Shown here piece after piece: positions 1 to 4,332 of a stretch of 23,989 nucleotides of DNA (its first letter is position 1; every line of letters starts with the position of its first letter). The notes beneath the pieces are model-generated. The model worked only from the letters and a program-made list of their open reading frames with translations, made no database searches and was not told the DNA's origin. A program made the position numbers and the translations under genes. Origin of the DNA: an uncultured bacterium (GTDB lineage Bacteria; Patescibacteria; JAEDAM01; Absconditabacterales; Absconditicoccaceae); contig CAIVDB010000019.1 of assembly GCA_903904545.1 (NCBI GenBank), positions 1 to 23,989 of the forward strand. Reading direction: 5' to 3'.

Positions 1-1297
1 CATCTCAGCCAAGATAATGTTCTTTATCATCTCTCCTAAGAGAAAGTCTTACTCGATATCCATCCAGCATATGCATAGTCGAATAAAATTCTTTTATAAT
101 TTTGACTATAGTCACTACTTCTTGATGAATTTGACTAACACGACAAAAGAGATGTCCATCATCTTGAGTAATAGACCTTACACGAGCAAGACCTGAAAGC
201 TGACCTGCTTTTTCATCACGGTATACTGTAGCAGGTTCGAAATATCTAATAGGCATATCACGATACGAGAATTGATTATCTGCAAAAATCTGCATATGAT
301 GAGGACAATTCATTGGTTTCAAAAAGAAATCTTCATTCGATGTTCCTCCATGCACCTTAAACATATCTTCCAAATAATGCCCGGCATGTCAGGAAGTCTT
401 ATATAAATCTTCCTTGGCTAAGTGAGGAGACCAAACTCTACTATAGCCCCTATCTCTATGAAGAAACCACAAGAAATCTTCCAGTTCTTTACGGATAATA
501 GCTCCATTGGGTTGGAATAATGGCAATCAAGAACCGACCAAATCAGAAATAGTAAAAATTTTTAACTTTTGTCCCAACACTCTATGATCACGTTTCTTTG
601 CTTCTTCCATCATCAACTGATAGGCCTTGAGTTCATCTTTACATCCAAAAGCAAGTCCATAAATTCTGGTCATCATAGGATTTTTTTCATTTCCTCTCCA
701 GTAAGCACCAGCAATCTTTTCACACACAAAAGCATCTGCATCGACTTCTTTAGAAGTCTCTACATGAGGACCTTCACACATATCTAAGAACGTGATGAAA
801 CGAGTTCAAAATTCAGAATTCAGAATTCAGAGTTGGTGTACATAGCTGGTAAGTTTCTCGTATTTTTCTACATATCCTGGTTTGGTATCTTTAAGAAGTC
901 TTTCCTTCGCCTCAGTAGGGATAGTATTGATATAAAATGAGAAATTAGTTTCTCCATTAGCTTGGAATTCATCCATCAATTCAACCTTGAATGCCTCTCC
1001 CATCATATCTACGATCTCTTTCGCTTGAGTATAATCGACATCGATACGGTGGAAGGATTGATTTTCTTTGATGATTCATTGCATCTTTTTGGTAAGCTCC
1101 TTAAGGTGTTCTTCCTTAAATTCCACTCCTTCAGAGAAGATGAAATCATAATAAAATCAGACATCAATTGCAGGACCAATACCTAATCTTGCAGAAGGAT
1201 CGATAGTTCTTTGGACTGCTTGAGCTAGAATATGCGCAAGCGAATGACGTTGCTTATAGAGCATTTCATCATCGTGATTGTGTTCATGGCTACACAT
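1..1297 (-). CDS. thrS: threonyl-tRNA synthetase, 3' end cut by the window edge
   Basis: ThrRS charges tRNA-Thr with threonine in the cytoplasm. About 432 codons are present; the C-terminal part of the catalytic core and the anticodon-binding domain lie beyond base 1. The N-terminal TGS domain is absent: the protein starts almost directly in the editing domain, with HSLAH (H18, H22) and CEGPH (C174, H178) forming the HxxxH / CxxxH quartet. The class II core follows, with GAIIRKELEDF, KTSGHAGHY, MNCPHH and the motif 2 stretch RVRSITQDDGHLFC. In-frame TGA codons (for example 527-529, 388-390, 5-7) lie in GSGLP, TSGH and LGGD, where the family has Gly. I chose the ATG at 1297 because it is just upstream of the RHSLAH start of the editing domain; no Shine-Dalgarno sequence precedes it. 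It lies 52 bp downstream of the four-helix-bundle gene, under the threonine attenuator. A 7-bp repeat array runs through the codons just before CEGPH. Confidence 0.97.
804..831. repeat. period-7 tandem array inside thrS
   Basis: Four 7-bp units: GTTCAAA followed by three copies of ATTCAGA. On the thrS strand they are translated without a frame break as part of LGILNSEFGT, with two TGA codons read as Gly. The segment sits in a variable stretch just before the conserved FLDMCEGPH. Its pattern matches the intergenic 7-bp arrays elsewhere in the window. Confidence 0.85.
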
Positions 1298-1304
1298 GGG
1301 AAAG

Positions 1305-1344
1305 AGTTAATGTTAAAAGTTTAATGATTAATGTATAATGATGG
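1305..1344. repeat. degenerate period-7 array between the four-helix-bundle gene and thrS
   Basis: The gap reads as degenerate 7-mers of the type GTTAATG / TTTAATG / ATTAATG / TATAATG. The 12-mer AATGTATAATGA recurs in the 13.8-kb gap. Confidence 0.6.
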
Positions 1345-1349
1345 ATTTT

Positions 1350-1703
1350 TTATATATTAGCCTGGGCTGTTTTTGTGATTGCAGTAATGATTTTCATAAT
1401 TTCTTCAACGTCCACAAGATAATTCGTGCAATCATGATAAGTAAGGTCGCTTTCTTGAAGTAATTTAAGCCAATACATTGTCTCTCTGCTTTCCTTAGAG
1501 GCAATACTCATTTTATTGATAAAATCTTTCTTTGTTGGTGATGCTGTAGCTTCGTAAACATTAGCTCATATACTCGTGCCACTTCTCAATAACTGCTTAG
1601 AGAGTACATATTCTCATTCCGCTTTCAATATCTTATAAAGTGAGATAATTTTTAAAGAAAATTTGAAAGACTTATCCAAGATAATATTTTCAGTTTTCAT
1701 CAT
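1350..1703 (-). CDS. four-helix-bundle protein (S23 / 23S rRNA intervening-sequence protein family)
   Basis: A 117-residue all-helical protein. It contains the family signature LLRSGTSIGANVYEA, in which the second Gly is a TGA codon, followed by KKDFINKMSIASKESRETMYWLKLL, abbreviated here as KDFINKMSIASKES...YWLKLL, which is the helix-3 pattern of the TIGR02436/S23 family. Members fold as a four-helix bundle and form pentamers; some are encoded in intervening sequences of 23S rRNA genes, and their biochemical role is not settled. The start is ATGATG at 1703 or 1700, with no Shine-Dalgarno sequence; the stop is TAA. It is the first gene after the threonine attenuator and precedes thrS, so it should share that transcript. 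Its position between leader and synthetase suggests a later insertion into a thrS operon, which is an inference. Confidence 0.93.
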
Positions 1704-1762
1704 ATACGATTTAAAAACTAAAAGACTCCAACACTAAGCATTAAGAATTCAAAATTCCATTC

Positions 1763-1791
1763 AAAAAAATCCCACCAGAAGTGTGGTAGGA
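1763..1791 (-). terminator. intrinsic terminator of the threonine attenuator
   Basis: On the minus strand, TCCTACCA (1791-1784) pairs with TGGTGGGA (1777-1770) around a 6-nt loop: an 8-bp stem with one G-U pair. Seven T residues follow (1769-1763). It lies 60 bp before the first structural gene, so it can only be a premature terminator. Confidence 0.88.
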
Positions 1792-1828
1792 GATATAGAT
1801 GCAGAATAACAACTAAAAACTCCTACCA

Positions 1829-1876
1829 TTAGATGGTTATCGTAGTAGTCGTGGTGGTTGTTATCATTAGAATCAT
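1829..1876 (-). CDS. threonine leader peptide (attenuator ORF)
   Basis: Fifteen codons from ATG 1876 to TAA 1829: MILMITTTTTTTITI. Eight of 15 residues are Thr, seven of them consecutive, using ACA, ACC, ACC, ACG, ACT, ACT and ACG, so all four Thr codons and thus every Thr-tRNA isoacceptor are sampled. Ile and Met make up most of the rest, as in enterobacterial ThrL. The stop codon directly precedes the antiterminator strand, and a terminator follows about 40 nt later. There is no Shine-Dalgarno sequence. An internal ATG at codon 4 is an alternative start. Too short to be a functional protein; it is a sensor of Thr-tRNA charging. Confidence 0.92.
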   Translation of the reverse strand: MILMITTTTTTTITI

Positions 1877-1902
1877 GAGAAATATGACATATAAACAAAG
1901 AT

Positions 1903-1930
1903 ATAATACTCTTTTTTCACAAGAAAGCAA
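1903..1930 (-). promoter_or_regulatory. probable promoter of the threonine leader/thrS operon
   Basis: On the minus strand, TTGCTT (1930-1925), a 16-bp spacer and TATTAT (1908-1903). Transcription would begin roughly 20 nt before the leader-peptide ATG, as expected for an attenuator. The match to consensus is only moderate. Confidence 0.55.
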
Positions 1931-1945
1931 GAAAAGATAGAAAAA

Positions 1946-2878
1946 TTACTTCAAACCTGCATGTTTTCTTTTGTAGATAAGATAGAGAACAAATGAAATA
2001 AATAAAGCAACAGCAACATTTTCTACAGGTCATACACGAGGTACTTTAGTAATGGTTGGCTTGGGAGTTGTGGGAGTGGTAGGTGTAGGAGCAGGAGTAA
2101 TACCCGTTACGTTAAAGGTATAACGCTTTTCTCTTCCTCCATTATTTGGCATAAAATTGATGATATGTTCTCCATTTCTTGCGAGAGTAAATTCATATCT
2201 TTCAGTAGACATAGAGACAGTAGTTAGTTTATTGAAAACATTCGCTGTAGGATCCCACAAAAAGATATCTACCTTATCAGAACCATCTACATTGATCCAT
2301 GTAAGTGTAGCTTTGTTTCCATTTATTGTATGACTTACATTAGCAAGATTCATATCAGAACCAGCACTACCATGAGTTGGTTCAGCATAAACACCCTCTC
2401 ATGAAGTAGAATCTCAAAGTTTAATCCAAAGTTCATTAGAAATCTGACCAATAATATTATTTTGGTCTTTAGGGATAATAAAAACATAATACACCTTATT
2501 AGGATCCAAGAGATCTCCACTTGCAGTAAGTTCCATAGTAAGGTTTCCATTAACTACAGGAAAATCAAAGTTTTTATCTTTAGATTGTTCCAAAAGAGAC
2601 GGATTTTCCAAAATTTTTGCAAGAGAATATTCACTATAAGAAACTGTATATTTTTTAATTCTATTACCAAGCTCATCCTGGATAGGAGGAGAACTAAAAA
2701 CTACTTTAGCAGGAGTAATTTGCGTGACTGATATTTTCTGAGAAAGAGTATATCCGAAAGGAATACTATCAGACAAGGTATCCATCCAGCTCCATAAATC
2801 TCCACTAGCAGCACTTGCCACACCTATAAGAAGAAGTACAGACAAAGTTATCCTAGAAAACCAAGAAAATATCTTCAT
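1946..2878 (-). CDS. secreted Fn3-like surface protein with C-terminal membrane anchor
   Basis: 310 residues. An N-terminal signal peptide (MKIFSWFSRITLSVLLLIGV, then ASAASG) is followed by two beta-rich segments that look like fibronectin type III folds (around 45-155, with KKYTVSYSEYSLAKI, and 175-265, with KVDIFLWDPTANVF). A Pro/Thr-rich linker (TPAPTPTTPTTPKPT) leads to GPVEN, a hydrophobic helix and a basic tail (YKRKHAGLK). This three-part C terminus resembles a sorting/anchor signal. In-frame TGA-Gly codons lie at 2414, around 2400 and at 2030; under the standard code the gene would fall apart into three ORFs. The protein is probably held in the envelope facing outward, with the Pro/Thr linker spanning the surface layer. 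Substrate or partner is unknown. It ends 16 bp before the thr-leader promoter and is a separate unit. Confidence 0.85.
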
Positions 2879-3020
2879 ACACTAAAGATAATAAATAAAA
2901 AATCTTATAATGTATACTAAATTTTAAAGACAATGCAAATACTTTTGTAAGAGAAAACAAAAGCAGAATTGACTACTCCAACAAAACATATACAGAAATA
3001 AGATTTTATTTACAAAACAT

Positions 3021-3806
3021 ATGAAAAAAGTTTACAAAGAAATTTTGTCTATGAATATTTGCAAAATAAAATTTTATCTATATACTTTATCCATCATCTC
3101 TATTTTTATCTTTAGCAATAAACTAATGACCGAAACAAAAACAAATGCAGCTCCTCAGGGAGAAAAGACCACAACAGCAAAAACAGTCAAAACAGTCTCA
3201 AAATCCAGTACTTCAAAAGTTTCCAAAGAAGAAGCACTCAAAAAACATCAACAAATGGTCCAATTCGTACAAAACGTACTCAGTGAAATGGAATCTGATA
3301 TCAAGAGAATGCATATGGTGCTCAACCAACTTGCAAAATTCGATCCAGAAAATCCAGACACATGGGAAGAGACAAATAAAGACAGCAACAAAACAATGGC
3401 AGATACAGAACTCAAAACATATAACGAAGAGAATGCTCAGGTTATAGAAGGAAAATTTGATGGATATTTTATGATGGGATCTGATCAAAAAAAATATCCC
3501 GTACCATTGAATTATTCAAGCAAAACTAAATTAGTAGCAGGAGATATTTTGAAACTCAAGATCTTAGAAGACGGAAAATTCATCTACAAACTTATCCAAC
3601 CTGTAGAAAGAAAGCATATTAGAGCAATCCTTTCTCAGACAGAAGACAACAAATTCGTTGCATTGTCTGATGATGGAAAATCATATTTCCTCAATCAAGC
3701 AGCCGTAACTTTCTTCAAAGGAAAGGCAGGTGATGAACTCTACATTCTCGTAAACGAAAAAGAAGACATGGCCTTCGCAGCAATCGAAGCAATTATAAAG
3801 AAATAA
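3021..3806 (+). CDS. membrane-anchored conserved hypothetical protein
   Basis: 261 residues with no TGA codons. One hydrophobic helix (around 17-35, FYLYTLSIISIFIF) acts as a signal anchor. It is followed by a Lys/Thr/Ser-rich linker (44-70), a helical segment (around 71-105, KKHQQMVQFVQNVLSEMESD) and a beta-rich C-terminal domain with VIEGKFDGYFMMG, KKYPVPLNYSSKTKLVAGD and YKLIQPVERKHIRAIL. I do not recognise a named family; the C-terminal part resembles small beta-barrel domains seen in other Patescibacteria hypothetical proteins, a weak recollection. An alternative start at codon 11 (MNICKIKF) would keep the anchor. It is divergent from the 2878 gene and followed directly by a strong terminator, so it is probably monocistronic. 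Confidence 0.8.
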   Translation: MKKVYKEILSMNICKIKFYLYTLSIISIFIFSNKLMTETKTNAAPQGEKTTTAKTVKTVSKSSTSKVSKEEALKKHQQMVQFVQNVLSEMESDIKRMHMVLNQLAKFDPENPDTWEETNKDSNKTMADTELKTYNEENAQVIEGKFDGYFMMGSDQKKYPVPLNYSSKTKLVAGDILKLKILEDGKFIYKLIQPVERKHIRAILSQTEDNKFVALSDDGKSYFLNQAAVTFFKGKAGDELYILVNEKEDMAFAAIEAIIKK

Positions 3807-3923: not shown

Positions 3924-4330
3924 ATTGTCATTCCGGTGATATCTCCCGCCTAGGCGGGATGCGACCGGAATCTTAATGGAGAACAATTATTTCATTACCA
4001 AGAAATTTATGAAACACTATTACGTTTACATTCTAGCAAGCAGAAAGATCGGAGTCCTTTATATATGAGTAACTAATAACATAATAAGAAGGATTCGAGA
4101 GCATCAAGATAGAATCAATAGGTGATTCACAAAAAAGTATCGAGTGAAAAAATTAGTGTATTATGAAAGACGGGTAGACATAAATGAAGCCATAATTCGT
4201 GAAAAACAACTTAAAAAATGGAAAAGACAACGAAAGATAAATCTTATAAAGAAGGAAAATCCTAATTGGGAGGATTTGTCCATTAAATTCATAAGATTCC
4301 GGCCGCAAAACTTAACGCCGGAATGACAAT
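3924..4330 (+). mobile_element. 407-bp element with hairpin ends carrying a GIY-YIG nuclease
   Basis: A perfect 13-bp terminal inverted repeat, ATTGTCATTCCGG (3924-3936) and CCGGAATGACAAT (4318-4330), bounds the element. Each end also folds on itself. At the left, ATTCCGGT (3930-3937) pairs with ACCGGAAT (3964-3971) around the perfect palindrome CCCGCCTAGGCGGG (3945-3958). At the right, ATTCCGGC (4296-4303) pairs with GCCGGAAT (4317-4324). The only gene is the GIY-YIG ORF, whose last codons and stop region run through the right-end hairpin. There is no transposase. The layout recalls REP/RAYT-type palindromic elements with the nuclease of a different family. No target-site duplication is evident. 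Confidence 0.75.
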
Positions 4331-4332
4331 AA
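4009..4332 (+). CDS. GIY-YIG nuclease-domain protein
   Basis: 107 residues of the small UvrC-type GIY-YIG endonuclease family. YYVYILASRK (4-13) supplies the GIY-equivalent strand, and LYIGVTNN (17-24) is the YIG motif, with Gly20 encoded by TGA. RRIREHQ (28-34) holds the catalytic Arg; GFTKKY and KLVYYE follow; EAIIREKQLKKWKR (around 64-77) holds the metal-binding Glu. The start ATG at 4009 gives the usual short lead-in. The final TGA at 4324 is read as Gly, and TAA at 4330-4332 ends the gene within the right-end inverted repeat. Small stand-alone members of this family are often found beside palindromic repeats and are suspected, though not proven here, to help them spread. Confidence 0.93.

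Follow-up and report, generated by a model that had tools for sequence, protein, structure and literature searches.

Examination of the minus strand upstream of the threonyl-tRNA synthetase gene (thrS) in a 23,989-nucleotide stretch of DNA from an uncultured member of the Absconditicoccaceae (the window) reveals an element that we interpret as a ribosome-mediated transcription attenuator controlling thrS, a reading to which we assign a probability of roughly 0.88. The element combines a predicted leader ORF rich in cognate codons, an intrinsic terminator, an antiterminator that excludes the latter, and a further pairing (1:2) between the leader and the RNA downstream of it, which is the set of features that marks an attenuator at the level of sequence. 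Such a switch would probably let the cell make more threonyl-tRNA synthetase (ThrRS) only when threonine-loaded tRNA runs short.

The leader ORF, MILMITTTTTTTITI* (1829..1876, minus strand), starts with ATG and comprises 15 codons followed by TAA; threonine occupies codons 6-12, seven in succession, and codon 14, with all four Thr codons present, and many relatives carry Thr-rich counterparts before thrS. It also contains four Ile codons, which are not kept in relatives. Immediately 3' of the leader stop codon lies segment 2 (TGGTAGGAG, 1820..1828, minus strand), the 5' arm of the antiterminator, which pairs over a perfect 9 bp (1828-1820 with 1792-1784) with segment 3, the 3' arm (CTCCTACCA, 1784..1792, minus strand). 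Positions 1791-1784 of segment 3 double as the 5' arm of the terminator, and this common arm renders the antiterminator and the terminator mutually exclusive. The terminator itself extends over 1791-1770 with 8 bp and a loop of 6; its 3' arm is segment 4 (TGGTGGGA, 1770..1777, minus strand), recovered both by the terminator hairpin call and by the fold, and the terminator scan places a T7 tract directly behind it (1763..1769, minus strand). It is the sole terminator-like site in 1300-2000, where shuffled sequences give a mean of 0.2, and the fold of minus strand 1880-1763 beats 200 of 200 dinucleotide shuffles (z -3.65). The coordinates, the leader with its seven consecutive and eight total Thr codons, the 9-bp 2:3 helix and the 8-bp 3:4 stem with its T7 had all been given in a preliminary description of this DNA, and they stand.

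The 1:2 pairing calls for a correction of that description, which had placed it at ACCAT/ATGGT. This pair is indeed present (1837-1833/1829-1825), but across 26 leaders the corresponding arms show no preference for their own partners, with 1105 of 5000 permutations being as good; three other arm cuts, tried as the first had clipped arms containing the stop codon, gave 1085 to 3670 of 5000. It is therefore unsupported as the main 1:2 competitor with any of the four cuts. A better fit is offered by segment 1 (ATAACAAC, 1857..1864, minus strand), which lies within the leader at codons 5-7, and a partner in the 3' half of region 2 (GTTGTTAT, 1806..1813, minus strand); here 1864-1857 pairs with 1813-1806, and the Thr-codon stretch CTACTA pairs with TGGTAG. 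No Shine-Dalgarno sequence precedes the window leader, as had been noted, and SD-like 4-mers occur upstream of only 3 of 26 and 4 of 37 leaders in the order and class sets of relatives described below. A search for a consensus promoter on minus strand 1300-2000 found none.

These elements suggest the following mode of action. The leader would be translated during its own transcription. When Thr-tRNA is scarce, the ribosome would stall in the Thr run and cover segment 1, leaving segment 2 free to pair with segment 3, so that transcription would continue through an intervening gene of the 23S_rRNA_IVP family into thrS. When Thr-tRNA is ample, a ribosome at the stop codon would cover segment 2, whereupon segments 3 and 4 would form the terminator and transcription would end near 1763. 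With no ribosome on the RNA, the emerging leader codons would pair with region 2 (1:2), which should favor the terminator. We infer from this anatomy both the dependence on Thr-tRNA charging and the transcription-translation coupling.

Folding the window RNA with a ribosome block at every codon in turn, from codon 6 through the stop codon, gives the states that such a switch predicts. The ribosome was assumed to cover 12, 14 or 16 nt, counted in the 3' direction from the base at which its A-site codon begins. Under each of these footprints the antiterminator is predicted when any one of Thr codons 6-12 occupies the A site, and the terminator when the ribosome stands at the stop codon. These alternative states had been anticipated. 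At Thr codon 14 the outcome is the terminator with the 14 and 16 nt footprints and the antiterminator with 12. RNA extending only to 1792 and free of ribosomes folds into the 1:2 hairpin (-16.3 kcal/mol). The minimum free energy structure of the full-length RNA without a ribosome holds the antiterminator and not the terminator, and therefore the outcome of the ribosome-free state would depend on the order of folding.

The thrS gene of the window (1..1297, minus strand) is represented by its 5' part, which continues beyond the window; the protein is cut by the window end, and its match to TIGR00418 (332.2 bits) lies below the cut-off of 383.65. Between it and the attenuator sits the IVP-family gene (1350..1703, minus strand; 117 aa; Pfam PF05635, 83.6 bits), and hence the switch would control both. 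The small ORFs found in this position vary by lineage: others are seen in L145, L139, L114 and L046, presumably NUDIX-like in L145 and L139 and endonuclease-like in L046 to judge by their motifs, with an unnamed 174-aa ORF in L114. Elsewhere in the window, the ORF at 3925-4332 carries what we take to be a GIY-YIG endonuclease motif.

The thrS gene of E. coli is controlled at translation by an operator. The window element does not adjoin the thrS ribosome-binding site as an operator of that type does, its end lying 465 nt before the start codon. One might still entertain an operator like that of E. coli thrS, bound by ThrRS and acting by tRNA mimicry and translational repression, with the Thr codons incidental, given that self-regulation of ThrRS expression in E. 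coli is cited in PMC2965389; yet that distance, the termination of the element in an intrinsic terminator, the fact that the parts kept in relatives are the codons, the antiterminator and the terminator, and the lack of any Rfam family match at cut-off over the window combine to make it highly improbable.

The attenuator reading gains further weight from relatives, which were sampled in three partly overlapping sets. Among the best 80 of 215 thrS loci in the genome_contigs sample, those closest to the window, Thr-rich leaders precede thrS in 30, comprising 23 from a first scan and 7 from a relaxed scan, with a terminator as an added requirement, of 56 loci without a first-scan leader; L026 has no upstream DNA, and L016, L054 and a second L033 match were dropped as long or distant. 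The order of RAAC1_SR1_1 (L014, G001) holds 49 genomes, 47 of them with a thrS match and 45 with readable upstream sequence (in G040 and G043 thrS is present and its upstream region unreadable); 25 of the 45 have a Thr leader before thrS, a count from which G009, G011 and a second G053 match were dropped as distant and weak, and in which G018 (4 in 7, at -705) was kept. These 25 and the window form the order set, and a terminator hairpin with a T tract follows the leader in all 26, that of G029 being placed by hand.

In the class of L076 (G013), a thrS match was found in 187 of 192 genomes searched. Sixty further class genomes, taken from a ranked listing, yielded 25 leader matches, of which 22 were accepted (L275, L287 and L297 were dropped as distant or weak); scanning the reverse strand of these 60 produced 2 matches, both weak. 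Another 30 class loci (L157-L186) have leader matches in 13, and most of their genomes repeat other sets and are not counted separately; three (L163, L166, L172) were included in the class set for the stop-codon and pairing analyses. A terminator follows the leader in 34 of the 37 members of the class set; L269, L280 and L299, without a called terminator, were excluded from the pairing tests. No accepted leader is present in 20 of the 45 order genomes and 38 of the 60 sampled class genomes, and the Thr leader is accordingly often lost, absent or unrecognized among relatives. Conservation of the Thr-rich leader and of the alternative stems had been set in advance as the test of the proposal, and both are kept in many, though not all, relatives.

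A cluster of at least five Thr codons in seven lies in a short ORF at most 300 nt from thrS in 20 of the 45 genomes of the order and in 11 of the 60 from the class, against a mean of 0.03 in first-order shuffles; clusters of at least five in seven for any other amino acid never number more than 1. The Thr codons of the order-set leaders are spread over ACA (82), ACT (49), ACC (48) and ACG (22). Because all four are used, conservation in these predicted leaders seems to act on the amino acid encoded and not on a repeat in the DNA.

Partner specificity of the helices was assessed by comparing each arm with its own partner and with partners from other genomes, using 5000 permutations per leader set. 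In the order set, 1:2 pairs at -10.9 kcal/mol with its own partner against -8.1 when permuted, and 2:3 at -18.3 against -15.5, with 0 of 5000 permutations as good in either case; for 3:4, whose arms were cut at set positions, the number was 2. Averaging over 12 hand-made sequence clusters, by which relatedness among the leaders is partly controlled, leaves these at 0, 0 and 12 of 5000 respectively, the contrary clusters being i (G012) for 1:2 and k and l (G045/47/48/49 and G051-53) for 3:4. Among the other class leaders, 18 of the 21 were tested, and 1:2 and 2:3 each gave 0 of 5000. In 16 Gracilibacteria leaders 2:3 again gave 0 of 5000, so that own partners are best in all three groups; 1:2 was not significant in these 16 (1773 of 5000), perhaps on account of low variation in both arms.

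The geometry is equally regular. Measured from the base at which the stop codon starts, the antiterminator arm begins at -3 to +8 nt in 26 of 26 order-set leaders, and its distance from the first Thr codon is 27-39 nt in all of them; spacing of this kind is the geometry that a switch governed by ribosome position requires. Both this spacing and the window state folds, with the assumed footprints, would place segment 2 under a ribosome at the stop codon and leave it free when the ribosome is stalled upstream. These observations bear directly on the possibility that the hairpin simply terminates the gene upstream, next to a Thr-rich frame arising by chance, with thrS served by its own promoter. 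Intergenic terminators are common, an ORF upstream of the window leader does end at 1946, and no consensus minus-strand promoter is seen before the leader; however, the Thr-cluster ORFs lie far above shuffles, they keep their geometry to an antiterminator arm whose 2:3 pairing is partner-specific, and the upstream neighbor is not kept, the frame ending before the leader reading, by eye, GAPNIE or GAPNID in L001 and L014 as against KHAGLK in the window. This explanation is already disfavored, and we regard it as extremely improbable.

A thrS tree joins the window to UBA5124 (L001) as its sister (support 100/99), and leaders occur in both the Absconditabacteria and the Gracilibacteria branches, with the remaining 28-row branch having one in L060 only. 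With first-scan labels, 15 changes of the leader trait are required, and hence losses, or leaders missed by the scan, must be many. The leaders of the Gracilibacteria (L022, L033, L035, L040, L041, L046, L051, L052 and L076) have A/T-Q-L preceding the Thr codons, encoded by the DNA word CACAACTTG, which may be kept because its CACAA(C) could pair with a (G)TTGTG that follows the stop codon, as seen by eye in most of these nine, although the 1:2 permutation test of the group was not significant.

The preliminary description had further tied the switch to a recoded genome, and in-frame TGA is read as Gly seven times in the thrS of the window. Six class leaders (L279, L289, L302, L303, L306 and L307) need TGA as a stop, and the thrS matches of the same six genomes have no in-frame TGA, by virtue of which these genomes read as standard-code. 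The presence of the switch in leaders that need TGA as a stop rules out a link with recoded genomes alone.

We also considered that the leader senses a general slow-down of translation, or ribosome-targeting drugs, instead of Thr-tRNA. Leader ORFs of that sort exist (for example PMC12121999); nevertheless, what is kept is the number of Thr codons and not one peptide, among leaders that were sought upstream of thrS, and a core pattern that was sought regardless of thrS across 49 genomes was found only beside it, which together render such sensing very unlikely. This pattern is strict and misses most leaders, and its 11 matches in 10 genomes all lie beside thrS. The notion that the core motif controls other genes as well was accordingly set aside, as the single pattern searched matched only beside thrS.

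Turning to other synthetases, no clear cognate leader was seen at 51 non-thrS loci recovered with PF00587, PF01409 and PF00579; the eight thrS genomes in this comparison were chosen for their leaders, so that their 8 of 8 is not an independent count. Two loci whose starts look serS-like (L196, L197) have Ser at 4 of 7 codons, but no attenuator was called at either: no terminator was called after the cluster in L197, and the cluster ORF of L196 is too long for the anatomy scan. That scan, which seeks a short ORF followed by a terminator, returned 23 matches at 128 non-thrS synthetase loci (L102 was left out), and four of these are cognate by eye, namely valS in L091 and L097, asnS in L332 and aspS in L339; the synthetases behind all four are named by NCBIfam models above their cut-offs. 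An Asn-rich ORF before aspS in L327 is doubtful as a cognate leader. The scans covered synthetases other than those for Met, Cys and Glu/Gln and PheT, and leuS is probably under-sampled in them, as the PF00133 loci are classified in part.

The two valS leaders, MKTNTLSVVVVN in G002 (L091:1330-1428) and MKTSKLSVVI in G001 (L097:1342-1430), look related, and both candidates fold into antiterminator and terminator states. The Asn-rich leader MYYCSCNNNTANNQAL before asnS (L332:1044-1160, G005) folds into 1:2, 2:3 and 3:4 states, and so does the aspS candidate, MQRSYMIGRDDDALLTARR, with three Asp codons (L339, G022, position 950 of the reverse complement), which precedes a gene for an aspartate--tRNA(Asn) ligase. 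A further 104 PF00152 regions, some of them short, gave 14 with an ORF and a terminator, of which asnS L452 is cognate and L471 weakly so; in L452 (G008, position 682 of the reverse complement) the leader MSPRNALMYSMINNNSNNNLHM, rich in Asn, precedes an asnS-like gene, and the fold has 1:2 and a strong terminator and no clear 2:3. The valS, asnS and aspS leaders are thus candidates for single-case attenuators on the strength of their predicted peptides and folds, and on account of their cognate codons we reject a reading in which the device is confined to thrS. At somewhat less than even odds, leader-peptide attenuation could be a general means of controlling tRNA charging in this lineage of tiny, largely uncultured and symbiont-like bacteria: the thrS switch would then be older than the TGA-to-Gly recoding, and Val-, Asn- and Asp-codon switches would precede valS, asnS and aspS in single lineages, doing the job that the T-box does in Firmicutes.

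How Patescibacteria regulate their genes is, to our knowledge, poorly understood. The cells concerned have about 0.6 to 1.6 Mb of DNA, and if the switch works as we infer, a ribosome must closely trail RNA polymerase at their thrS locus and the supply of threonine would be sensed through tRNA. The element offers a well-defined candidate switch for an essential gene that is open to testing, occurs in enough relatives for comparative work, and could act as a natural reporter for transcription-translation coupling. It might also be a starting point for inducible expression, for which systems still need development according to a 2024 article on Patescibacteria biology (PMC11665869); in that article 'riboswitch' occurs in two places, one naming a proposed tool and the other a reference, and 'attenuat' in none.

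The closest parallel in design is the thrL leader of the thrLABC operon of E. coli (RF00506, Thr_leader), which combines a leader peptide rich in Thr codons, the 1:2, 2:3 and 3:4 pairing logic and an intrinsic terminator, as the window element does. It differs in controlling biosynthesis, whereas the window leader stands before a synthetase gene and has Thr alone as its kept residue, Ile not being kept in relatives; the RF00506 model matches the window with only 12.9 bits (E 6), far from its gathering cut-off of 55. In Firmicutes, thrS is preceded by a T-box riboswitch, which likewise increases transcription of the synthetase gene in response to uncharged cognate tRNA; in the window the sensor would instead be a translating ribosome, and no T-box matches at gathering over the window or up to E 10 in 1700-1960. 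Indeed, none of the known RNA families in Rfam is found at cut-off over the window.

The preliminary description had stressed control of a synthetase gene by a leader peptide. The leader does precede thrS, with the IVP-family gene between, but this form of control is already on record for synthetases. According to PMC1262725, the gamma-proteobacterial pheST operon is subject to leader-peptide attenuation, and the trpS2 and leuS genes of Streptomyces have attenuators in which a cognate-codon leader and a terminator precede the synthetase gene; PMC2965389 describes the same arrangement for the His-leaders of hisS/hisZ in bacilli. The pheST attenuator shares leader-peptide control of a synthetase with the window element and differs in its amino acid (Phe) and phylum, and the trpS2, leuS and hisS attenuators likewise involve other amino acids and other phyla. 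Moreover, the reports on Streptomyces concern one or two species, whereas the Thr/thrS arrangement recurs across an order and a class. In the open-access literature, as far as its accessible text extends, we recognized no earlier description of a thrS leader-peptide attenuator, or of attenuators in these phyla, in line with the novelty first claimed for the element, although an earlier thrS prediction elsewhere is possible. The proposed mechanism is the classical one of ribosome-mediated attenuation, of which some synthetase genes already offer examples; the pairing of a Thr leader with thrS, the lineage in which it occurs and its breadth there appear to be new.
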